Shown: positions 3,960 to 26,585 of the stretch, one piece after another
How the letters are laid out: each line of letters starts with the position of its first letter
Position numbering within the stretch: the stretch's first letter is position 1
Virus record (IMG/VR): IMGVR_UViG_3300035703_000089
Span: 1 to 64,000 of that record
Origin: a virus
DNA: 64,000 nt
Reading direction: 5' to 3' (one strand)
The notes under the pieces: model-generated
Seen by the model: the letters and a program-made list of their open reading frames with translations, nothing else
Database searches by the model: none
Told to the model about the DNA's origin: nothing
Position numbers and translations under genes: made by a program

Positions 3960-4190
3960 ATGACACCAAAAGAAAAGGCTAAAGAATTAGTTGAAAAGTT
4001 TTATGGATTACCAACAGGTAACACTAATCGTTGTGTTGATTGGTTAACAGCTACAGAAAGTGCTTTAGTAACAATTGATGCAATGTTACAAATACAATCT
4101 ATTACAATGTATCCTGTTATTGAAGATAATATGATATATGGGCATAAAGATTATTGGAATAAAGTTAAACAAGAAATAAATAGTTTATAA
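3960..4190 (+). CDS. conserved small phage protein
   Basis: A 76-residue protein starting MTPKEKAKELVEKFY and ending YWNKVKQEINSL. From memory this is a common small protein in phages and prophages of Bacteroidota, in which an initial helix KAKELVxKFY is followed by a helix that scans ALVTIDAML and a C-terminal YWxxVKxEIxxL. No function is known to me. Its stop overlaps the next start by one base. Confidence 0.68.
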   Translation: MTPKEKAKELVEKFYGLPTGNTNRCVDWLTATESALVTIDAMLQIQSITMYPVIEDNMIYGHKDYWNKVKQEINSL

Positions 4191-4864
4191 TGAAAATATG
4201 GCACATAAGTGATACGCATACATATCACGGATTATTAGATATACCTGATAATATAGATATAGTAATATTTAGTGGTGATTGTAGTAATCCTAGAGATCCA
4301 TACTTAAATAAACCAGAAGTAGAAAATTTTTTAGCTTGGTATGAATCATTACCTATTAAATACAAAATATTTGTTGCTGGAAACCACGACACTTCAATTG
4401 AAAAAGGTTTTATTAATAAATTAGATTTTGCATCAAAAGGTATTATTTATTTAGAAAATAATTATACTGAAATTGAAGGATTAAAAATATGGGGATCACC
4501 AATAACTCCTACATTTGGTGATTGGGCATTTATGAAAGCTAGACATAAAACACATGAATTATGGCAACAAATACCTAATAATACGGATATAATAATAATT
4601 CATGGGCCACCAGCAAATGTACTTGACTTATCATATAATAGATTAAATCAATTAGAATTTTGTGGTGATAAAGCATTAAAAAAAAGGCTAATTGATATTA
4701 ACCCTAAATTAGTTTGTTTTGGTCATATACATAATTGTGATGATATTATAAATGCAGGAACTATGAAGCTATCAATCAGAGATACTATCTATAGTAATGG
4801 TAGTGTTGTAACTGATGGTAAATTTGGTAAACTAAGTAGTAATGGTAATATATTTGAAATATGA
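4190..4864 (+). CDS. calcineurin-like metallophosphoesterase
   Basis: A 224-residue single-domain enzyme with the full metal-binding series: D8-x-H10 (SDTH), G29-D30, G64-N-H-D67, HGPP in the third quarter and GHIHN near residue 180. These residues hold two metal ions and hydrolyse phosphomono- or diesters; the natural substrate (nucleotide, nucleic acid or phosphoprotein) cannot be read from sequence. Length fits a minimal calcineurin-like domain without extra modules. It overlaps the preceding gene by one base and the following by four. A second, unrelated-looking metallophosphoesterase lies at 25.7 kb. Confidence 0.9.
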   Translation: MKIWHISDTHTYHGLLDIPDNIDIVIFSGDCSNPRDPYLNKPEVENFLAWYESLPIKYKIFVAGNHDTSIEKGFINKLDFASKGIIYLENNYTEIEGLKIWGSPITPTFGDWAFMKARHKTHELWQQIPNNTDIIIIHGPPANVLDLSYNRLNQLEFCGDKALKKRLIDINPKLVCFGHIHNCDDIINAGTMKLSIRDTIYSNGSVVTDGKFGKLSSNGNIFEI

Positions 4865-5921: not shown

Positions 5922-6785
5922 ATGCCTAATGATAGTGAATGGTTTAATAGTATTTTAGATACTTATACACAGTATTTAAGATTTACTAGTGATGGCAGAG
6001 TTACTTATAATACGCCATCAGATAGTATACCACAGCCAGAAATACAATATGTAAAAAAATATAATAAAGAATTAAGTAAAAGTATAAACAAAATGATTCA
6101 TGATGAAATAGATAAAGCGTTTGAGTTTAAAAACAAAATAATAGATTCCAAAGATTTAGCTTATACAGTTAGACATGGTAAACTTATAATATATAGGTTA
6201 AATAGAAAAACAAATAAAAGTATAGGTTTATTTAAAACAGATAATAGTTATAAGTTAGAAAAAATACCAGATGTATCTACATATAGAGCTTATAATATAG
6301 GAATTCCTGAAAGGAATATATTAAGAACATTTTGTGATGTAAAAATTAAATCTTTTCAAGAATCTGCAGATCTATTTGGTTATAAGCCAACTAAAGAATT
6401 TATGATGAAATCAGGTCAACAGTTTGAAATAAGTAACATGATTCTTGATTATACTTGTAAAAAAGATGGTATAATTAGAAACGTTGTTGAAGTTATATTC
6501 AAAGATAAAGCACTAAAGTTTCTTCCTGAAGATTTAGAATTTATATATCCAGATTTAGAACTATTAAGAAAAGGTTATACTGAACCTTTAGATAGAAAAA
6601 TTAAGAAAGGTTCTAATGTTAAAGTAGTTGACGATAGAGGTATTCCATTTAAAAAGAATACTAGGTTAAAAGTTAACACTGTTATAACAGTAGGTCATTC
6701 AAGTTTTGGTAGAAAATATTGTAGTATTTTAAATGATTATAAAGAATATTTAATACCAACTAAAAAGTTAAAAGTTGTAGCATGA
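5922..6785 (+). CDS. hypothetical protein with C-terminal SH3-like strands
   Basis: A 287-residue basic protein with no recognised enzyme motif. The N-terminal half is helical and charged; the last 65 residues (KKGSNVKVVDDRGIPFKKNTRLKVN..., then KYCSILNDYKEYLIPTKKLKVV) look like a small beta-barrel of SH3/KOW type, the kind that binds nucleic acid or a partner protein. Its stop overlaps the ATP-grasp gene by four bases, so it may be co-translated with the ligase island that follows. A role in that island is possible but not shown. Confidence 0.55.
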   Translation: MPNDSEWFNSILDTYTQYLRFTSDGRVTYNTPSDSIPQPEIQYVKKYNKELSKSINKMIHDEIDKAFEFKNKIIDSKDLAYTVRHGKLIIYRLNRKTNKSIGLFKTDNSYKLEKIPDVSTYRAYNIGIPERNILRTFCDVKIKSFQESADLFGYKPTKEFMMKSGQQFEISNMILDYTCKKDGIIRNVVEVIFKDKALKFLPEDLEFIYPDLELLRKGYTEPLDRKIKKGSNVKVVDDRGIPFKKNTRLKVNTVITVGHSSFGRKYCSILNDYKEYLIPTKKLKVVA

Positions 6786-7582
6786 TTAAAAAAAAAGTAA
6801 AAAATAAATTAGGTTATAGACCTTTATTATTAAGTAGGCATCCAAGCCATCAAATATTACGTACTACGCTTGATAGGAATCCTTTTAGGGCAGTTATTAG
6901 GTTAGGTAGTACTACAATACCAAATGATGGTAAAGAACGCTTAGAAATCAATACTGCAGGTGCTATACGTAATAGTGCTGATAAGTTACTTATGAAAGAA
7001 TGTTTTGATGAAGCAGGAGTTAAAACAGCTAAATGGTGGCGTGCTGAATGTTTACCTGAAATAGAGGATAGTTCATTTCCTATTATAGCTAAGCATAGGT
7101 TTGGTAGCCGTAATTCAGGTAATACTTTGTTACATAACAGAGAAGAACTTAATGATTGGCTTACAGGTAAAACAAAATCAAACTATATATTTGAGAAATT
7201 CTATACTTATTCTAAAGAATATAGGATTCACGTAACAAATGATGGTTGTTTTTATACTTGTAGGAAACTATTAAGAAATGATACGCCTAATGATGAACAA
7301 TGGCATCGTCATGATGATAATTCAGTATGGATAGTAGAAGATAATCCTAAGTTTAAAAAACCAAGTAATTGGGATTCAATTGTAGAAGATTGTATTAATG
7401 CTAAAAAAGCATTAGGACTAGATATTTGTGCATTTGATGTTAAAACACAGGGTAGTAGTAAAGAAAAGCCTAAATGGATTATTATTGAGTCATGCAGTGC
7501 ACCAAGTTTTGGTGAAATAACAACACAAAAGTATATTAAAGAGTTAAATAAATTAATTAAAAATAAATATTATGGAATTTGA
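6782..7582 (+). CDS. ATP-grasp ligase
   Basis: A 266-residue protein with ATP-grasp layout: an N-terminal pre-ATP-grasp part ending in a KLLMKECFDEAGVKTAKWW helix, the first phosphate-binding Lys and glycine loop (FPIIAKHRFGSRNSGN), the EKF..EYRIHV segment, a basic strand CRKLLR, and the metal-binding C-terminal part with CAFDVK and IIIESCSAPSFGEIT. Members join a carboxylate to an amine through an acylphosphate. The usual Glu-x-Asn metal pair appears as Glu-Ser, a small deviation. It begins the island of amidoligases and glutamine amidotransferases; known phage cassettes of this kind are predicted to make amide-linked modifications of proteins or peptides. Overlaps both neighbours. Confidence 0.8.
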   Translation: MIKKKVKNKLGYRPLLLSRHPSHQILRTTLDRNPFRAVIRLGSTTIPNDGKERLEINTAGAIRNSADKLLMKECFDEAGVKTAKWWRAECLPEIEDSSFPIIAKHRFGSRNSGNTLLHNREELNDWLTGKTKSNYIFEKFYTYSKEYRIHVTNDGCFYTCRKLLRNDTPNDEQWHRHDDNSVWIVEDNPKFKKPSNWDSIVEDCINAKKALGLDICAFDVKTQGSSKEKPKWIIIESCSAPSFGEITTQKYIKELNKLIKNKYYGI

Positions 7583-8240
7583 ATTATCTGAAACTCCAGT
7601 TGAAGCAATAGTTAAACCTAAAAGAAAATATGTTAAAAAAAGTAATGGTATTGATCCTTTAACTAGAGATCAGTTTGAAAAGGCTAAAGATATTCTTAAA
7701 AGAAAATTGCAAATGATGTGTACTATGAGTAGTTACAGATCTGATGGTAACGCAAATAAATATGTAGAAGCCTATATTGACAATGTAATTAACTTTTTAC
7801 GTGGTGATTTTAAAATGAAATCTAATGTAAAAAACTTACATGATTCAGCACATTATGTTTCTTATAGAATAAACATATTTGATTATAATTTAGACTTATC
7901 AAGAAGTTATCATACAGCAAATGTTTCATTTAAAATGGAAGAATTGCATTCAAATTGTTCAAGCATAGGTATTCATCATTTTGATGGTAATTTTGCACCT
8001 AATCCTGGTATGTATGGTAATCAAGAAGCTATATTTAATTCATCAGATAAATTTAAATTGTTTTTAGTTGAAATGGAAGAATTAGCTAGAATATTTGGTT
8101 ATAGCAATATACTTTATACTATTAGCAATGAATCAGATAAAGTTTTTGCAGAATATGTTAAAGCTACTGCAACACAAATAGATATTTTTACAAATAAAAG
8201 AAGTCAAAGAGTTATTAGTTATTACAGCAAAAGAATATAA
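7572..8240 (+). CDS. unknown protein of the ligase island, possibly GNAT-like
   Basis: A 222-residue protein. Residues 1-25 are basic and disordered (KPKRKYVKKSNG). The end, MEELARIFGYSNILYTISN through FTNKRSQRVISYYSKRI, recalls the closing strands of GNAT-type acetyltransferases in phages (helix, strand, then phi-x-N-x-R-S/T and a final strand). Acetyltransferase-like proteins are known partners of phage amidoligases, so an acyl- or aminoacyl-transfer role fits, but no acetyl-CoA loop is evident. It overlaps the ATP-grasp gene by 11 bases and precedes the ligase by three, so it belongs to the operon. Fold call is weak. Confidence 0.6.
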   Translation: MEFELSETPVEAIVKPKRKYVKKSNGIDPLTRDQFEKAKDILKRKLQMMCTMSSYRSDGNANKYVEAYIDNVINFLRGDFKMKSNVKNLHDSAHYVSYRINIFDYNLDLSRSYHTANVSFKMEELHSNCSSIGIHHFDGNFAPNPGMYGNQEAIFNSSDKFKLFLVEMEELARIFGYSNILYTISNESDKVFAEYVKATATQIDIFTNKRSQRVISYYSKRI

Positions 8241-8243
8241 ATT

Positions 8244-9047
8244 ATGAAAGTAAATAAAGTTTTAATAGGTTGTGATCCTGAAGGTTTTCTGTTTGATCCA
8301 ATAAGAAATAAATATGTGCCAGTATGTGGCTTAATAGGTGGTACTAAAGATGAACCAATTCCTATTACTGATAATGGACATAGTCTACAAGAAGATAATG
8401 TAATGGTTGAGTATACTATACCACCATCAGCAACTGTAGAAGAGTTTAAAGATAATATTAATTTTGTTAAAGATTATATTGCTGAAACTGTACTTAAACC
8501 TTTAAGTCTAGTACCTCATTATATTGCATCAGCAAGATTTGAGATTGATGATTTATTAGCACCACAAGCACAACATTTTGGTTGTAGTCCTGATTATAAT
8601 GCTTATACATTTGAAGCTAATAGAGTTCAACGTGATGATTTTACACTTAGGACTAGCGGTGGCCATATTCATATAGGCTATGATAATCCTAGTGCAGAAA
8701 CTAATATTGAATTGATTAAAGCTATGGATTTATTCCTAGGCGTACCTTCAATACTATTAGATACTGATACTGAACGTAGAAAAATGTATGGCAAAGCAGG
8801 CTGTTATAGGTTTAAGAAATATGGCTTAGAATATCGTGTATTATCAACATTCTGGACTGCAAATGATGAATTGATTGAATGGGCATTTAATGCCGCTAAG
8901 CAAGCGATTGAATTTGTAAATAGTAATGGTATAATAACAAATGAAAACGATATTATTGATTGTATTAATAATTCAAATAAAGATTTAGCTTTAGAGATTA
9001 TTGAAGATTATAATATTAATGTAAATTTAGAAAAATTAATAATTTAA
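8244..9047 (+). CDS. COOH-NH2 ligase type 2 (phiEco32-like amidoligase)
   Basis: A 267-residue protein matching the glutamine-synthetase-fold amidoligases first noted in phiEco32-type phages. Visible signatures are the start IGCDPEGFLFDP (acidic metal ligands at about residues 10-12), DNVMVEYTIPPS with a conserved Glu, TSGGHIHIGY in the middle, and KAGCYRFKKYGLEYRVLSTFW, the Arg/Lys and Glu-Tyr-Arg that bind nucleotide and substrate. The enzyme is expected to use ATP to ligate a carboxylate to an amino group of a peptide or small molecule. It directly precedes a class II glutamine amidotransferase, the arrangement known from other phage cassettes, where the latter supplies ammonia or processes glutamine. 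Confidence 0.88.
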   Translation: MKVNKVLIGCDPEGFLFDPIRNKYVPVCGLIGGTKDEPIPITDNGHSLQEDNVMVEYTIPPSATVEEFKDNINFVKDYIAETVLKPLSLVPHYIASARFEIDDLLAPQAQHFGCSPDYNAYTFEANRVQRDDFTLRTSGGHIHIGYDNPSAETNIELIKAMDLFLGVPSILLDTDTERRKMYGKAGCYRFKKYGLEYRVLSTFWTANDELIEWAFNAAKQAIEFVNSNGIITNENDIIDCINNSNKDLALEIIEDYNINVNLEKLII

Positions 9048-9050
9048 AAT

Positions 9051-10658
9051 ATGTGTGGACTTTTTGGTTTTTCGGGTAAAACCCCATGTAACAAGAAATA
9101 TATGCAGTTAGGTATTATCTGGAACTCATTAGAAAGAGGCGAAGATTCTACAGGTATATATAGTCCCATTAATGGACTTAAAAAAAGTTTAACAAAGGGC
9201 AGTCATTATGTGTTACACAATGAAAATGATTTCAAAGTTGACAAAATAATGATTGCCCATGTTAGGGCTAAAACAGTTGGCTCTGCAACAGTTGAAAATG
9301 CACATCCATTTGAGCGAGGAAATTATATCCTTGCTCATAATGGTACTTTAACAAATCACAGAGATTTAATACATAAGTATGAATTAGATAGTTCATTGTA
9401 TAATGTTGATAGTGACGTAATATGTGGCTGTATTGCAAAGAATAATAATTTTGATGTTATTAAAGAAATTGCAGGTGCAGCAGCATTATTAATTCATGAT
9501 AAAACTAATCCTGAGTTATTGTATGTGTTTAAAAATGATCAGCGACCATTATGGCGAGGTGTAGATGCTAAAGGTAATATGTATATCTCATCATTATGTG
9601 AGCCATTGTATTTTATGGAATTATTTAACGTAAAAGAATTTAAAAATGATGTTTTATATACTATAAAAGATGGTAATATTATTAAGTCTACTAAGATTAA
9701 AAATACACCATATACTAAGCCTTATGTACCAACTGTAAATCATAATAGCTATGATTATAATAATTACAATAATAATAGTTATAACAACTATGGTAATTAT
9801 AACAATATAAATAATCGTTTTAGCCTTTATGAAAATGATGGCACTTATACAAATGTTTGGCTAAGATCTAAGTGGGAAATGAGTCACGTATCTCCTGAAA
9901 ATAGTTATAGTCTAGTTAAAGATACATATTATCTTATATTAGGTAAATCTACTGATCAACACAGATTTAGGGTTATGTGTAATGGTGTTGAAAGATGCGT
10001 GCCTAAAGCCGCATTTGACTCTAGTGACTTATTACAACGTAATGATATATTAGTTTTACTTGAAGATATACCTGAAGGTAGAGGATCTTTTGCGGGTAAA
10101 AACGTAGGCTCTAAAGGTGATTTATTTAAAGTATCAACAGTTTATAATGATGCTGACGTAGGTATATGCACTATAATAAATGAAGTTAGTCTTGGTTATA
10201 TAGATAAAAAGTATGTTAGAAAATTATCAGAAAAGGAATTAGCTGATTATAGAATAGCATCTACAATAAGTCATGTAACTAATATTAAGTATATTGAAGA
10301 TATAAAGAATCCTGTTCAATTAGATTTATTTAATTCAGTACAAGATACTACTCCTTTAAATAGTGAGCCTAATAATGCAACTGACATAAATCAAAGTAAT
10401 AATGATGAAGATTATGAAGCTGAAATGAACGCTTATAATAAGTCATATGATCCTATTGATATGGTAGAAGTTGATGCAGCTTATGTATCAGAATACTTTG
10501 ATGAATCAGATAATTTACTAGAAGAAATAAATGAGCTTATGAGTAAAGATATGTATATAACACCTGATTTAAGAGGTAAAGTACTTGAACTAATAGATTT
10601 AAATTTTGTAGCAAGATATCAAATTATTAACGAAGAAGTAATTAAAGATGCCCATTGA
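9051..10658 (+). CDS. class II glutamine amidotransferase with Asn/Tyr-rich linker
   Basis: A 535-residue protein. MCG at the N-terminus supplies the Cys2 nucleophile of the Ntn-type glutaminase after Met removal; H70-x-R72, NAHPF (83-87) and HNG (96-98) are the glutamine-binding residues of the family. Residues about 225-255 are an Asn/Tyr low-complexity linker. A C-terminal part (about 265-400) has SH3-like strands, followed by an acidic tail. In families such as GlmS and asparagine synthetase this domain releases ammonia from glutamine for a partner site; here the partner is presumably one of the flanking amidoligases. Its end overlaps the next gene by 11 bases, suggesting coupled translation and a shared complex. 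Confidence 0.9.
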   Translation: MCGLFGFSGKTPCNKKYMQLGIIWNSLERGEDSTGIYSPINGLKKSLTKGSHYVLHNENDFKVDKIMIAHVRAKTVGSATVENAHPFERGNYILAHNGTLTNHRDLIHKYELDSSLYNVDSDVICGCIAKNNNFDVIKEIAGAAALLIHDKTNPELLYVFKNDQRPLWRGVDAKGNMYISSLCEPLYFMELFNVKEFKNDVLYTIKDGNIIKSTKIKNTPYTKPYVPTVNHNSYDYNNYNNNSYNNYGNYNNINNRFSLYENDGTYTNVWLRSKWEMSHVSPENSYSLVKDTYYLILGKSTDQHRFRVMCNGVERCVPKAAFDSSDLLQRNDILVLLEDIPEGRGSFAGKNVGSKGDLFKVSTVYNDADVGICTIINEVSLGYIDKKYVRKLSEKELADYRIASTISHVTNIKYIEDIKNPVQLDLFNSVQDTTPLNSEPNNATDINQSNNDEDYEAEMNAYNKSYDPIDMVEVDAAYVSEYFDESDNLLEEINELMSKDMYITPDLRGKVLELIDLNFVARYQIINEEVIKDAH

Positions 10659-12249
10659 AGGAAATATAAGATTAAGAAGTAATACTGAACCAGAACTACA
10701 TCCAGTTCCTGCACCACCATTAATTGATTGGGTGGAAGATGCAATGAGAGATCCAAGTTTTGATGAAACTGATGAGGAATTAGAGCGCATGCTTGAAGAA
10801 GAAGAACATTCTTCTGAACCTGAATTTAGTGATGATGATCTTGTAAAGTTATATGAAAATGATGAAAAGATAAAGTATAAAGATGCTGTTTATGTACAGC
10901 ATTTTGGTTTTTTCAAAAAAGATGATCCTAGATTATTTAAAGATAAGTTTTACAATGATTTAAATTTAATAATTGATGAAAAACTTAAATTATTGGCCTA
11001 TAATCAAATATATGCAGTATATGAAGATATAGACGCTAAAGGTAATCTAATTAACCCATCTTATACTGTAGCTGCTGAATGTAGTTCAAATTATATTCAA
11101 GTTAGTAATCCAAATCATAAACTATCAGAGTTTTCATGGCTAGATGATAAATTTGTAGATAATAATGTATTTAAATATTATTATGTAGAATGTGTAAATA
11201 CTGGTAATTTTTATCGCAAAGATGATCCTAATACACCTAAAAATATATTAGTTAAACAAAATGATATAACTTATAGGAAACGCAAGTATAATAAATCTTT
11301 TAAAGATTTAGTAGCTAATAAACCTATGACTTATGTTAAAATGCTTGGTAAAAAATATACTTGGGGTGTAGAAATAGAAACTTCAAGTGGTTATTTGCCA
11401 AAGTATTTAGATAAAAAGTTAGTTTATGATGCAGTACATGATGGTTCATTGAGAGATGAAAATGGCAATGTATTTGGCGGTGAGTATGTAACTAGTGTAT
11501 TATATGGTGACCTAGGTTTACAACAGCTTAAAATGCTTTGTAATGAATTATCTAAAAGATGCATGATTAACAAGAAGTGCGGTGTTCATGTCCATATAGG
11601 TGGAGCAACATTTAATAAGGAAAGTGTAGTATTGATGTACTACCTTTATAAGAAAATGGAGAAGTCTATATTTAACATGTTACCTGAGTCTAGAAGAGAT
11701 AATGAATATTGTAGGAAATTACCTAATGTTAATATTAATATAAGCTCTATTAATACAAATAGAGAATATAATATTGATTATTATTATAATACTATAATGA
11801 CTATATTATCTTCAGGTTATTCACCAGATCATAAGGTTAATAAGAAAAATGATCATCCAAAGGGTTTTAAATGTGGTTATGATCATAGTGCTGCAAGATA
11901 TTGCTGGGTTAATTTTATCCCTGCAGTATTTAATACTAGGAAAAATGAAGTGTATACTATAGAGTTTAGACCTCATTCTGCTAGTACATCTTATTATAAG
12001 ATTAAAAACTGGTTATTTATATGCATTGCATTGATTGATATTGTAGAGAACCATAAGAAAGAAATCTACAATAATCCTAATATTACATTGCAAGATATAA
12101 TCAGAATAGTTTATCCTAAAAATCACATGCAAATCAATGATTATATTGAGAAAAGAACTTTAAAGTTTGCTGATAAATCAATTAATCATGAAATAAGTGA
12201 CTATACGGATAACGAAGTAACTGATGATTTAACATTAAAAAGTTTGTAA
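10648..12249 (+). CDS. Amidoligase_2 family protein
   Basis: A 533-residue protein. The first 80 residues are acidic and probably disordered; a middle region of small beta motifs (YVQHFGFFKKDD...) follows; the catalytic part starts near 230 with KYTWGVEIETSSGYLP, then HDGSLRDENG, a GGEYVTS segment, CGVHVHIGG and, near the end, IEFRPHSASTSYYKI. Glu-x-Glu, HVHIGG and the Arg-rich strand are the metal/ATP signature of the Amidoligase_2 branch of glutamine-synthetase-like ligases. The expected reaction is ATP-dependent amide bond formation on a peptide or protein. It lies between two glutamine amidotransferases, overlapping the first by 11 bases and preceding the second by three. Confidence 0.88.
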   Translation: MPIEGNIRLRSNTEPELHPVPAPPLIDWVEDAMRDPSFDETDEELERMLEEEEHSSEPEFSDDDLVKLYENDEKIKYKDAVYVQHFGFFKKDDPRLFKDKFYNDLNLIIDEKLKLLAYNQIYAVYEDIDAKGNLINPSYTVAAECSSNYIQVSNPNHKLSEFSWLDDKFVDNNVFKYYYVECVNTGNFYRKDDPNTPKNILVKQNDITYRKRKYNKSFKDLVANKPMTYVKMLGKKYTWGVEIETSSGYLPKYLDKKLVYDAVHDGSLRDENGNVFGGEYVTSVLYGDLGLQQLKMLCNELSKRCMINKKCGVHVHIGGATFNKESVVLMYYLYKKMEKSIFNMLPESRRDNEYCRKLPNVNINISSINTNREYNIDYYYNTIMTILSSGYSPDHKVNKKNDHPKGFKCGYDHSAARYCWVNFIPAVFNTRKNEVYTIEFRPHSASTSYYKIKNWLFICIALIDIVENHKKEIYNNPNITLQDIIRIVYPKNHMQINDYIEKRTLKFADKSINHEISDYTDNEVTDDLTLKSL

Positions 12250-12252
12250 AAT

Positions 12253-13539
12253 ATGTGTTTAATAAGTGTGTGCCCTAAAGGAACTAAGAAGGGCACAGAA
12301 CAAGTATATAAATTTATTAAATCTGGCATGGAAAGTAACACTAGTGGTAGTGGTTATATGTTCAAGCGAGATGGTGAAAATACAATAACAATTAGAAAAG
12401 GATTTTTTAATTATGGTAGATTAATTGAGTCCTTGGAAAGTGATAGATTAAATGATAATGATGAGTTAGTAATTCATCATAGGATTCCAACAAGTGGCAA
12501 TAGAAATGATTTAAATTGCCATCCATTTGTTATATCTGATAATCATAGTGAAGTTATAATGACTAACGGAAGTACAGAAAAGCCTTGTATGGCTCATAAT
12601 GGTATTTTCAGTAGAATTATAAGCCTTGAAAACCTTAATCCAGAGTTTTCAGATACTTATGCATTTGCAAGATATATTATGGGTAATCCTAATATGTATG
12701 AAATATTTACAAATGATTATCTTTTATTTGAAACTTTAACTTCTCATATAGTTGGAACTGATAAGTTAGTATTCTTATTTCCTAATAAAGATTTAATGAT
12801 GATAGGTCAATACATTCAAGATGATGGCTATTTTCATTCAAATACAGGCTATAAGAGATATACTTATGATAGAGGTGGTAGCAGTAGTCACAACTATGCA
12901 ACATCGTCACACAGCAGTTTTTCAGAAGGATATGGAAATTGGAGTGAATATGTTGATGAAGATGAAAGTGAATATGGTTGGCCTCCAGCTCTTCCAGTAA
13001 TCAAGTCTATGCAACGTGTAACTAATAGTGTAGTTGTACCTAACCTTATAGCATTTGATTCAAGTGAAATAGCTTTAGATGAGAAAAACTATAATCATTT
13101 TGATTATGTAATGAAAACTAAGTGGGATGATACACCTCCTAATGAGAGGCATAAAGTTAAATTAAGTAGTTTAGAAGGTTTTGATGGTAATGCGTTATTA
13201 CAAGTTTTAACATGGGTTAGTGAAGATAAAAAGACTTATGGTGCTGGTGTACAAACATTCTCATTGATGGAAAACTATTATTATATTCCTAAAAATGAAC
13301 ATTACAATGTTTATAAGGATTATAAGAAATTGTTACTTAATGATTATCAGTATAGTAAAAGCTCTATTAAAGATTTAGGTAAATTGTTAAATCGTAACTA
13401 TTTAAAGCCAGACAATCATCCATTGCTATTCAAAAAAGATAGTAAGTTTTATTGTAAAAAAGCTTTACAAATGTTACATAATAATTTAACTAATCCTATG
13501 AGAGAAGTTATTGATGCATTAAACGCAGGGACTGCATGA
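12253..13539 (+). CDS. second class II glutamine amidotransferase
   Basis: A 428-residue protein starting MCL, again placing a Cys nucleophile at position 2. H76-R77 with IPTSG, NCHPF (88-92) and MAHNG (113-117) are the Ntn glutaminase signature. After about residue 195 comes a Ser/Tyr/Gly-rich linker (RGGSSSHNYATSSHSS) and an acidic patch, then a C-terminal region of unknown fold. The domain plan copies that of the amidotransferase at 9.05 kb (catalytic part, low-complexity linker, C-terminal partner domain), but the sequences are quite different. It follows the Amidoligase_2 gene by three bases, so one amidotransferase is paired with each of the two ligases. Confidence 0.87.
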   Translation: MCLISVCPKGTKKGTEQVYKFIKSGMESNTSGSGYMFKRDGENTITIRKGFFNYGRLIESLESDRLNDNDELVIHHRIPTSGNRNDLNCHPFVISDNHSEVIMTNGSTEKPCMAHNGIFSRIISLENLNPEFSDTYAFARYIMGNPNMYEIFTNDYLLFETLTSHIVGTDKLVFLFPNKDLMMIGQYIQDDGYFHSNTGYKRYTYDRGGSSSHNYATSSHSSFSEGYGNWSEYVDEDESEYGWPPALPVIKSMQRVTNSVVVPNLIAFDSSEIALDEKNYNHFDYVMKTKWDDTPPNERHKVKLSSLEGFDGNALLQVLTWVSEDKKTYGAGVQTFSLMENYYYIPKNEHYNVYKDYKKLLLNDYQYSKSSIKDLGKLLNRNYLKPDNHPLLFKKDSKFYCKKALQMLHNNLTNPMREVIDALNAGTA

Positions 13540-13763
13540 TAGAGAATGTAAATAGTATATCTGATAGACAAAAGATGATACATATTTACTTAAAAATACT
13601 AAATATTAGTAATAATAATTTGTTTTCTAATGTAGAAATAGTATCTTTGTTAAAGTCTAAGTTTGATTATGATGTGTCAATAAAAGATGTCCAGTTGTAT
13701 TTTGAGCCAACAGTGTTTGAAGATGAGATTGATTTGAGATTGCAAATGAAACACTTAATGTAA
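13536..13763 (+). CDS. hypothetical protein
   Basis: A 75-residue acidic protein, predicted helical, with a DRQKMIHIYLKILNISNNNLFSNVEIVSLLKSKFDYDVS core that could be a small winged-helix or HTH (helix, NxxLFSNxEI turn, helix, strand). It overlaps the amidotransferase gene by four bases and precedes the initiator-like protein by seven. A regulatory or adaptor role in the replication genes is conceivable; nothing more can be read. Confidence 0.6.
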   Translation: MIENVNSISDRQKMIHIYLKILNISNNNLFSNVEIVSLLKSKFDYDVSIKDVQLYFEPTVFEDEIDLRLQMKHLM

Positions 13764-21040: not shown

Positions 21041-21611
21041 ACGGCAAAAAATAGAAGGAACTAAATTAAATAAATGTGTAAGATTAGTCTTACCAATGTG
21101 TGATATAAACTTTAGTATTTTACCTAAAAACTTTACTAATGGTTATATATCAGATAATAATAAAGCAATTATAGTATTTGATAAAAAATATATTTTACCT
21201 GAAACAGACAACTTTGAAATCTTTTTATTACATTTGTGTGAAAATAAGAATTTTAAGCTTAAAACTGAAGATGAAGATGAAATAGTTGTTTACTTTAATA
21301 TACCAAGTATATGGCTTGATGACCTCAAACTATTTAAAATTGGTGCTTATAGTAAATTTTCAAATGATTATAAGAAAAAATTAGTACAATATTTTGGCAA
21401 TAGGTCTATAAAAGATACGTATCATGCAAATGTATACAATGCTATATATCCTCAAGATTTTAAGAGGAAACAGATTGCTGAAAGACTTAGTACTAAAAAT
21501 AGTATAGTAGATTACAGAGATATAGTTGAAGTACTGGAAGTGCCTGATTTGTTTAAAGAAACATTTAGGCCAATAACACAATTACAAGAAACAAATATAA
21601 ATAATATATGA
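21033..21611 (+). CDS. hypothetical protein
   Basis: A 192-residue basic protein beginning with GTG at 21033 (a TTG lies one codon off at 21031 but is out of this frame). Beta-rich first part (CVRLVLPMCDINFSILPKNFTNGYI), then helices and a C-terminal DIVEVLEVPDLFKETFRPI. No recognised motif. It overlaps the exonuclease by eight bases and the reductase by four (ATGA), so it is co-transcribed with nucleotide and replication genes. Confidence 0.6.
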   Translation: MNKRQKIEGTKLNKCVRLVLPMCDINFSILPKNFTNGYISDNNKAIIVFDKKYILPETDNFEIFLLHLCENKNFKLKTEDEDEIVVYFNIPSIWLDDLKLFKIGAYSKFSNDYKKKLVQYFGNRSIKDTYHANVYNAIYPQDFKRKQIAERLSTKNSIVDYRDIVEVLEVPDLFKETFRPITQLQETNINNI

Positions 21612-22402
21612 CAAAAGATAAGGAAGTATTAAGTAAGATTACGATCTTCAACAAGTATGCTAAGTTCATACCTGAATTAAATCGTAGAGAAACATGGGAA
21701 GAGTTATGCACAAGATATCAAGATATGATGATAAGTAAATATCCATCATTACAAAATGATATTAAAGCTAACATGAAATACATTTATGATAAGAAAGTTT
21801 TACCATCAATGCGTGCATTACAATTTGCAGGTAAAGCTATATCAAAGAATGAAAGTCGTATATATAATTGTGCTTATTTGCCTGTAGATGATTACAGGGC
21901 ATTTTCAGAAACTATGTTTTTATTATTAGGTGGTACTGGCGTGGGTTATTCCGTGCAGTACCATCATGTTGAAAAACTAAATGAGATTCACAAGCCTACA
22001 AAACTACGTAAATATGTAGTATCTGATAGTCTTGAAGGTTGGGCAGATGCAATTAAAGTGCTTATGAAAGCATATATTGGTGGTTCTAGTTACAAGCCTA
22101 AATTTAACTTCAGTGACATCCGTCATAAGGGAGTTAGATTAGTAACTGCAGGTGGTAAAGCACCAGGGCCTAGACCTTTAATGGAATGCATTGCTAAGAT
22201 TGAAGGACTATTAGAATCTAAAGAAAATGGTAGTAAATTAAAGCCTATTGAGTGTCATGATATTCAATGCTATATTGCAAATGCAGTATTATCAGGTGGT
22301 ATAAGAAGATCAGCAATGATTAGCTTATTTTCATTTGATGATGATGAAATGCTTAAATGCAAATATGGTAATTGGTGGGAACTTAATGAGCAAAGAGGAC
22401 GT
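21608..22402 (+). CDS. nrdJ: class II ribonucleotide reductase, exon 1
   Basis: Exons 1-3 (this entry, 23408-23588, 24357-25282) join into a 633-residue reductase of the adenosylcobalamin-dependent class II type, which turns ribonucleotides into deoxyribonucleotides. Exon 1 holds the start of the barrel: VLPSMRALQFAGKAI, RIYNCAYLPVDD with the first redox Cys, FLLLGGTGVGYSVQ, SDSLEGWADAIKV, AGGKAPGPRPL and GGIRRSAMISLFS. The exon stops after GR in EQRGR; the next exon starts ANNSAV, giving the conserved EQRGRANNSA. There is no ATP-cone and no class I metal-site subunit nearby, consistent with class II. It would supply dNTPs independent of oxygen if the host makes B12. Confidence 0.87.
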
Positions 22403-23407
22403 AATTAATTTGTGCGCCCTAAAATATGGTGAATTGCTGGAAACCCCTTAGAGTCTTAACTACCAAAGAGTAAAAATGTTAAGAATTGGGCAATCAGCAG
22501 CCAAGTCTATTAAATAATAGAAAGGTTCAACGACTATCCGCAAGGAGTACAATCGAGTGATTGGAAGCGCCATACACTATAAATTTATAGTGAAGATATA
22601 GTCTAATCTTAATGGAAACATTAAGCAGTTGTTAAAATAGCTTAAATTTTATATTAGCTCTTGCACTATATTCATTTATTTATTATATTTATAATATGTA
22701 CAATTCTTTTATAAATAAATATAAAAATCAAATAATTAAAGATGATTATTTTGAAATGCATCATATAAAACCTAGATATTTAGGTGGATGTAATAGTGAA
22801 GAAAATTTAATTAAATTAACTTATAGACAGCATATTTTAGCTCATTTATTATTGTGGAGAAAATATAAAAATCCAGAAGATATGTGTGCTTATAGATTAA
22901 TGAAAGGTTTATCTAAAGATAGAAAATCTGAAATATGCAAAATGATTGGAGAAAAAAATAAAATATCTGGTCATATCTATAAGTTAGGATTAAAAAACAA
23001 AGAAACTAATTGGATAAATAAAATTAAAACTAAAGAAAGTTTATCAAAAGGTGGAAAAATTGCTGGAAAAATAGCAAAAGAAACTGGTCAGATAAATAAA
23101 ATTAAAACTAATAATTCTTGTAAAAAAGGTGGAATTACTCAAGGAAACAAAGCTAAAGAATTAGGTCAAATACAACAGATAGCCAAATATAAAGGTAAAT
23201 ATGTTTTAATAATGCCTGATGGTAAAGAATTTTTACATGCTTTTCAAGCTTCAGAATACATGAATGTTGATTCAAACACAATTAGTCAAAGATGTTATTC
23301 AGGAGCGTTAGGGTACAAAAGAAGATTAAAAAAACAAGAAGAATATGGTATGTATGGAGTTTTAACAACGGAGTAGAAATTAACGAGTCTACTTGAATAA
23401 AAAAAAG
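22403..23407 (+). ncRNA. group I intron 2, in nrdJ after EQRGR
   Basis: Core elements: P GAATTGCTGGAAAC (22431-22444), Q CAATCAGCAGCC (22491-22502), R GGTTCAACGACTA (22524-22536), S GAAGATATAGTCTAATC (about 22592-22608). A guide GCGCCC at 22414-22419 pairs with exon GGACGT with one mismatch and the U.G splice pair. The 3' exon start GCAAAT pairs with 22408-22413 over six bases (P10), and the intron ends in G23407. The core is compact and near the 5' end, with the homing ORF downstream of it. The core resembles intron 3 of the same gene much more than intron 1, especially around R and the AAGGAGTACA block, suggesting duplication of one intron type within the gene. Confidence 0.9.
22696..23376 (+). 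CDS. HNH homing endonuclease in nrdJ intron 2
   Basis: A 226-residue basic protein. YFEMHHIKPRYLGGCNSEENLIKLTYRQHILAHLLLWRKY is an HNH motif (His-His, Asn, His), as in phage SegH-like and I-HmuI-related enzymes. A double repeat follows: KGGKIAGKIAKETGQINKIK and KGGITQGNKAKELGQIQQI, of NUMOD-type DNA-contacting modules, and then MPDGKEFLHAFQASEYMNVDSNTISQ, a helix-turn-helix of intron-nuclease-repeat type. The ORF begins about 85 bases after the intron core and ends 31 bases before the exon. It presumably cleaves intronless nrdJ alleles. It uses TAG as stop. Confidence 0.88.
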   Translation: MYNSFINKYKNQIIKDDYFEMHHIKPRYLGGCNSEENLIKLTYRQHILAHLLLWRKYKNPEDMCAYRLMKGLSKDRKSEICKMIGEKNKISGHIYKLGLKNKETNWINKIKTKESLSKGGKIAGKIAKETGQINKIKTNNSCKKGGITQGNKAKELGQIQQIAKYKGKYVLIMPDGKEFLHAFQASEYMNVDSNTISQRCYSGALGYKRRLKKQEEYGMYGVLTTE

Positions 23408-23588
23408 GCAAATAATTCAGCTGTAATAGTACGTAATAGAATTAAAAAAGAAGAATTTGATGAAGTTTGGGAAAAAATTGAATTATCTAATTCAGGAGAA
23501 CCTGGATTATATTTTACTAATAACAGTGATTGGGGCACTAATCCTTGTTGTGAAATTGCACTAAGGCCATTTCAATTTTGTAATCTCT
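23408..23588 (+). CDS. nrdJ: class II ribonucleotide reductase, exon 2
   Basis: Sixty codons plus one base. It starts ANNSAVIVRNRIKKEEFDEVW and contains NPCCEIALRPFQFCNL. In class II reductases of the Lactobacillus leichmannii type the thiyl Cys408, Glu410 and redox Cys419 lie at this spacing (C-x-E and a second Cys 11 residues later), which the sequence shows exactly. The exon ends with T23588 after CTC, so intron 3 sits about two codons past the redox Cys. An exon this short and this important is easily missed by gene callers; a frame from the AUG-like codons before it would include intron sequence. Confidence 0.85.
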
Positions 23589-24356
23589 AAACAAACATGG
23601 AGATTTAAAACGTGGAGAATTGCTGGAAAATCTAAACGTAAAGGCGTAGACAATCAGCAGCCGAGCCTACAGTCTGTAGGAAGGTTCAACGACTATCCTG
23701 AAAAGGAGTACACTTAAGTAAGTGGAAGCACCACGCACTAGAAATAGTGATGATATAGTCTGAACTTATAAGAAATTATAAGATGAGTAAACTTTAACAA
23801 ATATTTAACATGTAAAATTTTCAAATATAGATTTAATTTTGTAAATTAATATTATTACAAAACTAAACATTATGGAAGATTTTAAAATAAACAGGGAAGG
23901 TAATTTAATTTCACAAACTCACAGAGAATGTACTAATAAAAATTGTAAAAAAATTTTTAAAAAAACATCAAAAACTGTTACTTTATGTAATGAATGTAAT
24001 TCAAATAGAGTAAAAGGGCGTGATAAAAAAACTAAAATGCTTAATGGTGCTAAAAATAGAGCTAAAATTAAAAATTTAGACTTTAATATAGACTTAAGTG
24101 ATATAATTATCCCTGAATATTGTCCAGTTTTAAAAATAAAATTAAATGTTCACAAAGGAATATCAGGAGGTAAAAAAGATTCTCCTGCTTTAGATAGAAT
24201 AAATAATAATATTGGATATGTTAAAGGAAATGTTAGAGTTATTAGTCATTTAGCAAATATGATGAAAAGTCATGCAAACAATGAAGAATTATTGCTTTTT
24301 GCAAAATGGATTAATAATACTCTGGCTGAGAATAACGAACTCAGTTGAACAATTTG
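23589..24356 (+). ncRNA. group I intron 3, in nrdJ after FCNL
   Basis: Guide GGAGAT (23599-23604) pairs perfectly with exon ATCTCT, six base pairs including the terminal U.G. Core elements are P GAATTGCTGGAAAA (23617-23630), Q CAATCAGCAGCC (23651-23662), R AAGGTTCAACGACTA (23681-23695) and S GATGATATAGTCTGAAC (about 23749-23765). The intron ends in G24356; the 3' exon GTG pairs with 23596-23598 as a short P10. Splicing joins CTC-T to GT-GAA, giving FCNLCEINVSD. Another end at 24344 (exon TTGAAC...) would add four residues and breaks P10, so it is less likely. Confidence 0.87.
23872..24348 (+). CDS. HNH endonuclease with zinc knuckle in nrdJ intron 3
   Basis: A 158-residue basic protein. Residues about 15-45 hold a zinc-knuckle (CTNKNC, CNEC). 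The nuclease part is EYCPVLKIKLNV, SPALDRINNNIGYVKGNVRVISHLANMMKSHANNEELLLFAKWI, which is the pattern of small T7-type phage HNH enzymes (CPxL, SPxLDRI, GYVxGN, VIS..AN.MKS). It differs from the enzymes of introns 1 and 2, so each intron carries its own nuclease. It starts about 100 bases after the intron core and ends eight bases before the exon. A TAATTTTG promoter-like box lies at 23834-23841, about 30 bases before its ATG, possibly allowing independent expression. Confidence 0.87.
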   Translation: MEDFKINREGNLISQTHRECTNKNCKKIFKKTSKTVTLCNECNSNRVKGRDKKTKMLNGAKNRAKIKNLDFNIDLSDIIIPEYCPVLKIKLNVHKGISGGKKDSPALDRINNNIGYVKGNVRVISHLANMMKSHANNEELLLFAKWINNTLAENNELS

Positions 24357-25282
24357 GTGAAATTAATGTAAGTGATATTGCATCTCAACAAGACTTAAAT
24401 GAAAGAGCTTCTGTAGCATCATTCTTTGGTACTTTACAAGCAGGATTTACTGATTTCCATTACTTACGTCCAATATGGAGAAAAACTACTGAGAAAGATG
24501 CTTTAATTGGGGCTGGAATGACAGGTATAGCTTCAGGTGAAGTTTTGAAATATAATCTAGCTGAAGCTGCTGAGGTTGTTAAGTTTATTAATGAACAAGT
24601 AGCTGCTAAGATTGGTATTAATAAAGCTGCACGTACTACAACTATTAAACCATCAGGTACAACTAGTTGTGTATTAGGTACATCAAGCGGTATTCATGCA
24701 TGGCATAATGATTATTATATTCGCCGTATAAGAATAATGAAGAATGATCCTTTATATTCTTATCTAATAAAAGAACTACCTGAACTTATTGAAGATGATA
24801 AATTACAGTTTAATACTGCAGTATTATCTATTCCTCAAAAAGCTCCAGAAGGTTCTATTGTTAGGACTGAAAGTGCAATACAATTACTTGGTAGAATTAA
24901 GTATTTTAATATGAAATGGGTTAGAGAAGGTCATCGTAAGGGTGATAATACTAACAATGTATCAGCAACTGTTTCAATTAGAAATGAAGTTATACCTGGT
25001 ATGAGAATTGAAAATGGTGTAGAGATACGTGATGAACTTAGAGAATGGGATGCTGTTAGAGAATGGATGTGGGATCATAAACACACATTTAATGGCTTAT
25101 CAGTATTACCATATGATAATGGTTCATATGTACAAGCACCATTTACAGATTGTACTGAAGAAGAATATAATAAGTTGTATGCTTTAATCAAAGATATTGA
25201 CTTAAGTAAAGTAATTGAAGAAGATGATAATACAACTCATTCTCAAGAAGCTGCTTGTGCAGGTGGAGAATGTGCTGTTTAA
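24357..25282 (+). CDS. nrdJ: class II ribonucleotide reductase, exon 3
   Basis: Two bases plus 308 codons, beginning (C)EINVSDIASQQDLNERASVASFFGTLQAGFTDFHYLRPIW. Later signatures are GAGMTGIASGE, ARTTTIKPSGTTSCVLGTSSGIHAWHNDYYIRRIRI (the nucleotide/phosphate-binding PSGT loop) and the C-terminal CAGGECAV, whose Cys pair shuttles electrons from thioredoxin to the active site. A longer frame starting at 24272 exists but its first 28 residues come from the intron, out of frame with the HNH ORF, and should not be annotated. The following gene, 11 bases on, acts on dATP/dGTP-type substrates. Confidence 0.87.
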
Positions 25283-25293
25283 TAATTTAAATT

Positions 25294-25665
25294 ATGAATA
25301 ACAAAAATTATATTGTAGAAGAAAGTTTTGATGTAAATGATTCTAGAGTATTTGAAACTGGTGCAAAACGGGACTCAAATTACGCTAAGCCTTTTATTCA
25401 TAACTTACAAGGTTATACAAGATTAAGATTTGGTTATCATACTAATTTAGGTGCTAGAAAATATGGTGATGGGAATTTCCTTAAAGGGATTCCCACTCCT
25501 GTAGCACTTGAGTCATTAGACAGGCATTTAGCACTATATTTAGTAGGTGATAGGTCAGAAGATCATTTATCTGCAATAATATTTAATGCACAATTATGTA
25601 TGTTAAATGAAAGAGATGAGGGTATGCAATCAGATCATTTTTATAAAATAAACAGTAATAAATGA
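25294..25665 (+). CDS. dATP/dGTP diphosphohydrolase-like protein (DUF5664)
   Basis: A 123-residue protein with the family's pattern: ETGAKRDSNYAKPFIHN at the N-terminus, RLRFGYHTNLGARKYGDGNFLKGIP in the middle, LESLDRHLALYLVGDRSEDHLSAIIFNAQLC at the C-terminus. The GAKKYGxxNWxKG and RHL...HLxAxxxN motifs define a predicted all-alpha NTP pyrophosphatase group, annotated as dATP/dGTP diphosphohydrolase N-terminal domain. It would trim or sanitise dNTP pools. Placement right behind the ribonucleotide reductase agrees. It overlaps the next gene by four bases. Nucleotide preference cannot be read from sequence. Confidence 0.8.
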   Translation: MNNKNYIVEESFDVNDSRVFETGAKRDSNYAKPFIHNLQGYTRLRFGYHTNLGARKYGDGNFLKGIPTPVALESLDRHLALYLVGDRSEDHLSAIIFNAQLCMLNERDEGMQSDHFYKINSNK

Positions 25666-26585
25666 ATAAAGTAAATAAAAAAGAAGATGCAATTTATACT
25701 TGGTTAAATGAACGTAAAGGTTATTTAAAGAAAGGTATAATGGCTGGTTTTAACATCTATAGAAGTACTGTAGATAAAACTGCAAGTTTTATTGATTACA
25801 ACGATGCTTTAAGGCGTTTAAGACTTGAAAATGAAGATCATTATAAGTCTAAACCTAAACCATCTAAACCTGTTAAAATAACAACTTACAAACCTATTAG
25901 ATCTAGTAGTTCTAGTAATAAACAAAATACTTTGGCTATATCTGATATGCATGAACCATTCTGTAAAGAAGGTTACATGGAGCATTGTATGGAAATAGCT
26001 AAGAAGTATGAATGTACTAGAGTAGTATTAATAGGTGACGAAGTAGATTTATGTGGCATAGGTCAATGGGAAAAAGATCCTGACGGATTTAGTGCAGGTT
26101 CAGAAGCTGCTATGGCTCATGAAAAGATGAAGTTATGGTATAAAGCATTTCCTGAAGCTTATGTATGCATAGGTAATCATACTGCAAGACCTTTTAGAAT
26201 GGCTAGAACAAGTGGTATTCCTAAAAAGTTTATAAAGTCTTATGAAGAAGCTTGGGAAGCTCCTAGTACATGGAAATGGGCTGAACATTGGGAATTTGAT
26301 GGTGTATTATATACACATGGTACAGGTTTTAGTGGTGCTAATGCAGCTATTAGAATAGCTACAAGGCATCGTCAAAATACTGTAATAGGTCATATCCATA
26401 GTGAGGCTGGTATTCAATACTCTGCAAGTAAGATAGATTTAGTATGGGGTATGCAATTAGGTGGCGCATTGGATGATAGTTCATATGCAGCTTATTATGC
26501 AAAAGATCAACTTAAAAAATCTATTGTAGGTTGTGGTGTAGTATTAGAAGGTAGATTACCAATTTATGAACCAATGAAATTATAA
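25662..26585 (+). CDS. second metallophosphoesterase
   Basis: A 307-residue protein. About 85 residues at the N-terminus include an HTH-like segment (EDAIYTWLNERKGYLKKG) and a Lys/Pro/Ser-rich linker. The catalytic part shows LAISDMHEPF (D-x-H), LIGDEVDL (GD), CIGNHTARPFRMA (GNH), LYTHGTGF (H) and VIGHIHSEAG (GHxH), a complete calcineurin-like metal site. Phage homologues with GNHxxR and GxHxG layout are common in Bacteroidota phages; substrates are unknown. It follows the dNTP hydrolase gene with a four-base overlap, suggesting a role in nucleotide or DNA-end metabolism, which is inference. Confidence 0.85.
   Translation: MNKVNKKEDAIYTWLNERKGYLKKGIMAGFNIYRSTVDKTASFIDYNDALRRLRLENEDHYKSKPKPSKPVKITTYKPIRSSSSSNKQNTLAISDMHEPFCKEGYMEHCMEIAKKYECTRVVLIGDEVDLCGIGQWEKDPDGFSAGSEAAMAHEKMKLWYKAFPEAYVCIGNHTARPFRMARTSGIPKKFIKSYEEAWEAPSTWKWAEHWEFDGVLYTHGTGFSGANAAIRIATRHRQNTVIGHIHSEAGIQYSASKIDLVWGMQLGGALDDSSYAAYYAKDQLKKSIVGCGVVLEGRLPIYEPMKL

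Follow-up and report, generated by a model that had tools for sequence, protein, structure and literature searches.

A run of six genes at positions 6782–13539 of a 64-kb stretch of viral DNA (here called the window; taken from IMG/VR virus record IMGVR_UViG_3300035703_000089, which comprises 65,167 bases and is itself a fragment) encodes a putative cassette for glutamine-fed amide ligation. This predicted chemistry, already proposed in a first-pass annotation of the window, is well supported by the profile matches and the active sites of the encoded enzymes. As judged from sequence comparison, the core of the cassette is the one known from phages phiEco32, LUZ24 and phiRIO-1, while the new part is a lineage-specific extension composed of a second class-II glutamine amidotransferase (GATb) and two accessory proteins of 222 and 287 residues (aa).

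Core enzymes and their distribution

All six open reading frames (ORFs) of the run are present where the first-pass annotation had placed them, on the plus strand, with intergenic spacings of -11, +3, +3, -11 and +3 bases; spacings between -11 and +3 bases make translational coupling plausible. The operon begins at least one gene before position 6782, with the plus-strand ORF 5922–6785, which overlaps the start of the ATP-grasp gene by 4 bases, and it probably also takes in the plus-strand ORF 13536–13763.

Profile searches matched all the enzyme families that had been read from motifs, i.e. the ATP-grasp enzyme, the PF14395 ligase, the class-II (Ntn) glutaminase and the PF12224 amidoligase. 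The ATP-grasp amino-acid ligase (GRASP, 6782–7582) belongs to phrog_2599 (E 1.5e-31), and in a search of its profile against the PDB the closest solved structures were RimK-type alpha-L-glutamate ligases (E 1e-10). The COOH-NH2 ligase type 2 (LIG2, 8244–9047) matches PF14395 (E 2.6e-11) and phrog_3815 (E 3.8e-75), the first class-II glutamine amidotransferase (GATa, 9051–10658) matches PF13522 (E 1.9e-13) and phrog_4736 (E 3.3e-33), its family being similar to PurF/GFAT in the PDB (E 9e-22), and the Amidoligase_2 protein (AMD2, 10648–12249) matches PF12224 (E 1.5e-13) over residues 270–462, behind an N-terminal extension of ~230 residues.

According to the alignments, the active-site residues of these core enzymes are retained, with the exception of one metal-site Asn in the ATP-grasp enzyme. 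In LIG2, residues E13, E56, H141, R178, R189, E196 and R198 are invariant among 88 sequences, and H143 is found in 86 of them. GATa keeps D120 in 86/86 and R72, N97 and G98 in 85/86 sequences, and the catalytic Cys2 in 82, the other four being gapped at this position. AMD2 residues E242, E244, E279, H314, H316, E439 and R441 are invariant (97/97). In the ATP-grasp enzyme, K68, E146, R148, K162, D219 and E236 are conserved in all 85 homologs, but the protein of the window has E-S-C in place of the E-x-N metal motif (N238 replaced by Cys). Asn occupies this position in 78 of the 85 sequences; L105 has Ala, and the window and loci L022, L023, L024, L035 and L103 have Cys. The Cys is a trait of the lineage rather than a sequencing error. 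It is the single respect in which loss of a catalytic residue, named in the first-pass annotation as counting against its reading, partly applies.

To place these genes among their relatives, we considered 100 fetched ligase-bearing loci, picked by likeness to the LIG2 of the window and reduced to 81 by clustering at 90% identity; the occurrence counts are lower bounds, because many of the contigs are cut. Of the other three core genes, GATa is present in 80 of these loci, AMD2 in 79 and ATP-grasp in 75; a class-I glutaminase occurs in 63 of them and a gamma-glutamyl cyclotransferase in 30. Among named phages, including those of E. coli and P. aeruginosa, the ligase search returned 316 records and the GATa search 319, with the same host spread. 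The four core families occur together in PaP3, LUZ24, phiEco32, phiRIO-1, cr108_1 and phi14:2, as well as in Salmonella phage 7-11, O4 and an Alcaligenes phage. This linkage indicates that two ligases, an ATP-grasp enzyme and a glutaminase are the norm; the idea that two ligases with an ATP-grasp enzyme represent an expanded version does not hold, since in the first six of these phages they are standard content.

The cassette has been described before. The genes of UFV-P2 were annotated as such a cassette in 2014 (PMC3890496), and a seven-gene "peptidoglycan modification cassette", said to make three unusual peptide linkages and thought to block superinfection, was described (PMC5498523); this paper lists phiRIO-1/PSA-HP1, phiEco32, 7-11, PaP3, LUZ24, tf, PA11 and CW02 as carriers and cites Hardies 2013 and Iyer. 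The context-based prediction by Iyer, mentioned in the first-pass annotation, does exist and is cited in later papers. Our literature search returned no paper on the cassette in crAss-like phages, the sole match for Crassvirales and ATP-grasp concerning host proteins.

The window and the phiEco32/phiRIO-1-type cassette have the same four core families in a single cluster that adjoins replication genes, but they differ in gene order, and GATb is a feature of the window. Moreover, the window has predicted GNAT-fold and SH3/KOW-like accessory proteins in place of those of the phi32_85/phi32_87 type, and, unlike its counterpart, no cyclotransferase or class-I glutaminase that we could detect: neither was found in the 64 kb even at relaxed thresholds. 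The cyclotransferase is optional across the family, as its count in the survey indicates, and hence does not define it. Closer in arrangement are cr108_1 (NC_055878) and Cellulophaga phage phi14:2 (NC_021806), with the same order as in the window (ATP-grasp, an accessory gene in some cases, ligase, GATa, amidoligase) next to primase, helicase and Sak4-like genes. Neither of them has GATb or the 222-aa and 287-aa proteins. Where the window has the 222-aa protein, cr108_1 carries a class-I glutaminase plus two unknown proteins, and phi14:2 has a cyclotransferase. The IMG/VR contigs L023/L026/L033, L035 and L022 exhibit the gene set and order of the window, including the 287-aa protein, the 222-aa protein or an equivalent GNAT-like protein, and GATb; they share the E-S-C motif and are 50–61% identical to the window in the ATP-grasp enzyme and LIG2.

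By eye, a 353-aa ORF in L084 (8934–9995) seems to start like a gamma-glutamyl cyclotransferase and to continue as a class-I glutaminase. If true, this fusion would link the two accessory activities.

The lineage-specific extension

GATb (12253–13539, plus strand) has no significant match in Pfam and only a weak one in PHROG (2e-4, to a family of unknown function). Nevertheless, a family profile built around it hits the GFAT/PurF glutaminase domain when compared with the PDB (E 2.4e-5), and Cys2, His75, Arg77, Asn116, Gly117 and Asp134 are kept in 23/23 sequences. The presence of two Ntn glutaminases with Cys2 is thus borne out, for GATa by PF13522 and for GATb by the family profile and these residues. 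Of the 81 loci, 11 have GATb, and in the full cassettes with this gene it follows AMD2 immediately downstream without exception. GATa and GATb form separate groups in the tree (SH-aLRT support 99), and the tree, in spite of its long branches, leads us to reject the origin of GATb as a duplicate of GATa. As for GATb replacing the class-I glutaminase, we found only a weak, non-significant tendency (class-I present in 6/11 loci with GATb vs. 57/70 without, p 0.06).

The AMD2 proteins of GATb-bearing cassettes constitute one group of the tree (support 88), so that within full cassettes GATb looks like a single addition in one lineage. Together with the adjacency of the two genes, this grouping supports a partnership between the amidoligase and GATb. 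The proposal that each ligase is paired with its own amidotransferase therefore stands in part: gene order suggests the pairing of GATb with AMD2, but that of LIG2 with GATa is less well supported, because most cassettes have one class-II glutaminase for both ligases, and the podovirus order places it beside AMD2 rather than LIG2. A glutaminase dedicated to AMD2 suggests ammonia as the substrate of the latter, i.e. amidation. Similar pairs, with an Amidoligase_2 gene and a GATb-family glutaminase downstream, stand alone in Mycobacterium phage Marvin (gp105-gp106), Methylophilales phage MEP402, C75C1, a Christensenellales phage and others, and appear to be a minimal version of this arrangement. 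In two of them the genes are ~1 kb apart, no ATP-grasp or type-2 ligase was found near any of the pairs, and their amidoligases branch far from that of the window. Their GATb proteins group with those of full cassettes, with details of the tree made unsure by long branches.

The 222-aa protein (7572–8240, plus strand) had been singled out as a specific partner of the cassette. It belongs to no Pfam or PHROG family, and has no match among 50,697 phage records or in a single-sequence scan of IMG/VR. Its relatives emerged only from the fetched neighboring loci, where they occupy the same slot in L023, L024–L026 and L033–L036. Iterating the profile extends the family to L022 and to small proteins next to other cassettes, and two of these small proteins fall just short of the cut-off for Pfam Acetyltransf_1. 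We accept the role of partner, although for a protein confined to this lineage and with a predicted GNAT fold. The AlphaFold model, of moderate confidence (mean predicted local distance difference test score, pLDDT, 64.8; poor for the N-terminal 80 residues, higher for the C-terminal half of the fold), follows the GNAT order beta-beta-beta-beta-alpha-beta-alpha-beta-beta. Its residues 81–222 superimpose on GNAT structures with Z 11.4 (121 residues, 2.5 A; Foldseek E 6e-7), and a viral fold library returned generic GNAT matches alone. The acyl-CoA loop [RQ]xxGx[GA] between beta4 and alpha3 is absent, according to a motif check, from the proteins of the window, L026 and L035, and present in L022, L088 and L101. 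Due to the absence of this loop we assign the fold without claiming an acetyltransferase function, and read the protein as a partner with a GNAT fold in which the use of acyl-CoA has probably been given up. The sole invariant column in the family alignment is Cys129. We also considered a decayed class-I glutaminase, which resides in the same slot elsewhere, and rejected it, as there is no profile similarity and the predicted fold is different.

A conserved [N/C/D]-C-G motif is common to the 222-aa family and to small proteins beside other cassettes (L061 9069–10002, L053 5779–6261, L051 2164–2550 and L042 10236–10682), which are possibly an undescribed cassette-associated GNAT-like family.

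The 287-aa protein (5922–6785) has homologs directly or nearly upstream of the ATP-grasp gene in 15 fetched loci (7/81 after removal of redundancy), all of the latter seven with GATb: 7/11 GATb clusters vs. 0/70 others, although these loci are not phylogenetically independent. Its AlphaFold model (pLDDT 75) consists of small barrels, and the C-terminal one weakly matches KOW/Tudor/SH3 domains (Z <=7.5). At the other end of the operon, the 75-aa ORF 13536–13763, which overlaps the GATb stop, is conserved behind this gene and is probably co-transcribed, has homologs in eight loci (L003, L004, L022, L023, L026, L033, L034 and L036).

Many standard cassettes have uncharacterized proteins of ~300 aa upstream of the ligase (phi32_87/88, PaP3 orf49/50, cr108_1 gp029/030; L001 12385–14286, L013 10130–12311, L014 2542–4479 and L028 10812–11720), which may be distantly related among themselves.

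Possible reactions and targets

In the mechanism that we propose, the class-II glutaminases would split glutamine and hand ammonia in trans to the carboxylate-amine ligases; supply in trans is suggested by the finding of no synthetase domain of a known type in the glutaminases. LIG2, presumably of the gamma-glutamyl type, and AMD2 would then form amide or isopeptide bonds with ATP, from ammonia or amines, with AMD2 served by its own GATb in this lineage, while the RimK-like ATP-grasp enzyme would add an amino acid, probably glutamate. The GNAT-fold and SH3/KOW-like proteins would probably be substrate-binding or scaffold partners. It is doubtful, yet conceivable, that the E-S-C ATP-grasp enzyme, AMD2 with its dedicated GATb, and the loop-less GNAT protein with its Cys constitute a complex with a product unlike that of the standard cassette.

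For substrate and purpose we follow published proposals, the leading one being that the cassette modifies peptides of the host cell wall (also in PMC10580990), which we consider a plausible but evenly poised prediction. The target would most likely be a host-envelope peptide with free carboxylates, such as peptidoglycan stem peptides or their precursors, and a change of the wall during infection would guard the cell from rival phages or early lysis. Every identified host is Gram-negative (60 records spread over the ranking of ligase-bearing phages, in which the phiEco32-like coliphages Bas90 and Bas94 of the BASEL collection are found). This agrees with a diderm-wall target common to these phages, without being proof of one, and sampling would fit as well. 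The core cassette is widespread and its active site strictly conserved; a correct wall hypothesis would mean a wall-remodeling pathway run by many phages in lytic infection.

Several observations weigh against modification of the wall. The cassette has replication genes around it rather than those for lysis or the surface. The nearest matches of the ATP-grasp profile are RimK and cyanophycin synthase, whereas its likeness to D-Ala-D-Ala ligase is weak, so that a protein or poly-glutamate target fits as well as a wall precursor, and the change of Asn to Cys could mean that its activity is altered or lost in this lineage. LIG2 and AMD2 have no solved relative by comparison of profiles with the PDB, hence their substrate cannot be read off, and the papers found contain no demonstrated reaction for any member of the cassette.

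The RimK likeness fits another proposal, namely tagging of host or virion proteins, in which the ATP-grasp enzyme would add glutamate to C termini and the ligases would amidate or branch them, redirecting the translation or transcription machinery of the host. The closest solved relatives of the enzyme are RimK-type ribosomal-S6/alpha-L-glutamate ligases, host proteins are the proposed substrates of phage R2K ATP-grasp ligases (PMC4431377), the predicted KOW/SH3-like and GNAT-fold proteins would suit a protein or ribosome target, and the placement among early replication genes agrees with such a role. We nonetheless regard tagging as rather unlikely: there is no known protein target, and sister cassettes often carry a cyclotransferase (30/81) or a class-I glutaminase (63/81). 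In known systems the substrates of these enzymes are free peptides or small gamma-glutamyl compounds.

The same two enzymes suggest a small gamma-glutamyl or amidated metabolite that could serve as an osmolyte, polyamine store or signal, e.g. a gamma-glutamyl amine whose glutamyl group would protect it for a time until the cyclotransferase takes it off. Sister cassettes combine a gamma-glutamyl-type ligase, a cyclotransferase and a class-I glutaminase, a set that resembles the logic of the Puu pathway and of butirosin BtrJ/BtrG, although this is a lead and not a test; the 222-aa model also matches the GNAT structures of spermidine acetyltransferases, but no better than it does many other GNATs. 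As neither enzyme was found in the window, this lineage would be without the deprotecting steps, and we find a metabolite product unlikely. The position of the cassette between helicase, primase and nucleotide genes could also point to hypermodification of DNA, with amino groups or amino acids attached to the bases of the phage, but no base-hydroxymethylating or base-kinase gene was recognized among the ORFs searched, and we consider this very improbable. Modification of cell-wall peptides remains our leading prediction.

Genomic surroundings

The cassette is flanked by helicase, primase and nucleotide genes, and several replication proteins of the window match the loci of cr108_1 and phi14:2, with which it shares cassette gene order. 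On these two grounds, replication proteins and cassette order, the virus may be a gut-type, crAss-like (Crassvirales-type) phage.

Two metallophosphoesterase genes are present (4190–4864 and 25662–26585; phrog_1649 and phrog_221), and one of them, a short way upstream of the cassette, is shared with L024–L026/L033. The ribonucleotide reductase gene (21608–25282) is split by two group I introns (Rfam RF00028) at 22393–22625 (E 7.6e-27) and 23548–23782 (E 4.8e-18), with a homing endonuclease ORF (22696–23376) between them and an endonuclease-VII-like ORF (23872–24348) after them. On the minus strand, region 27002–57362 contains large ORFs of 1211, 5209, 711, 1019 and 1528 aa, which fit the expectation for giant virion proteins of crAss-like phages.

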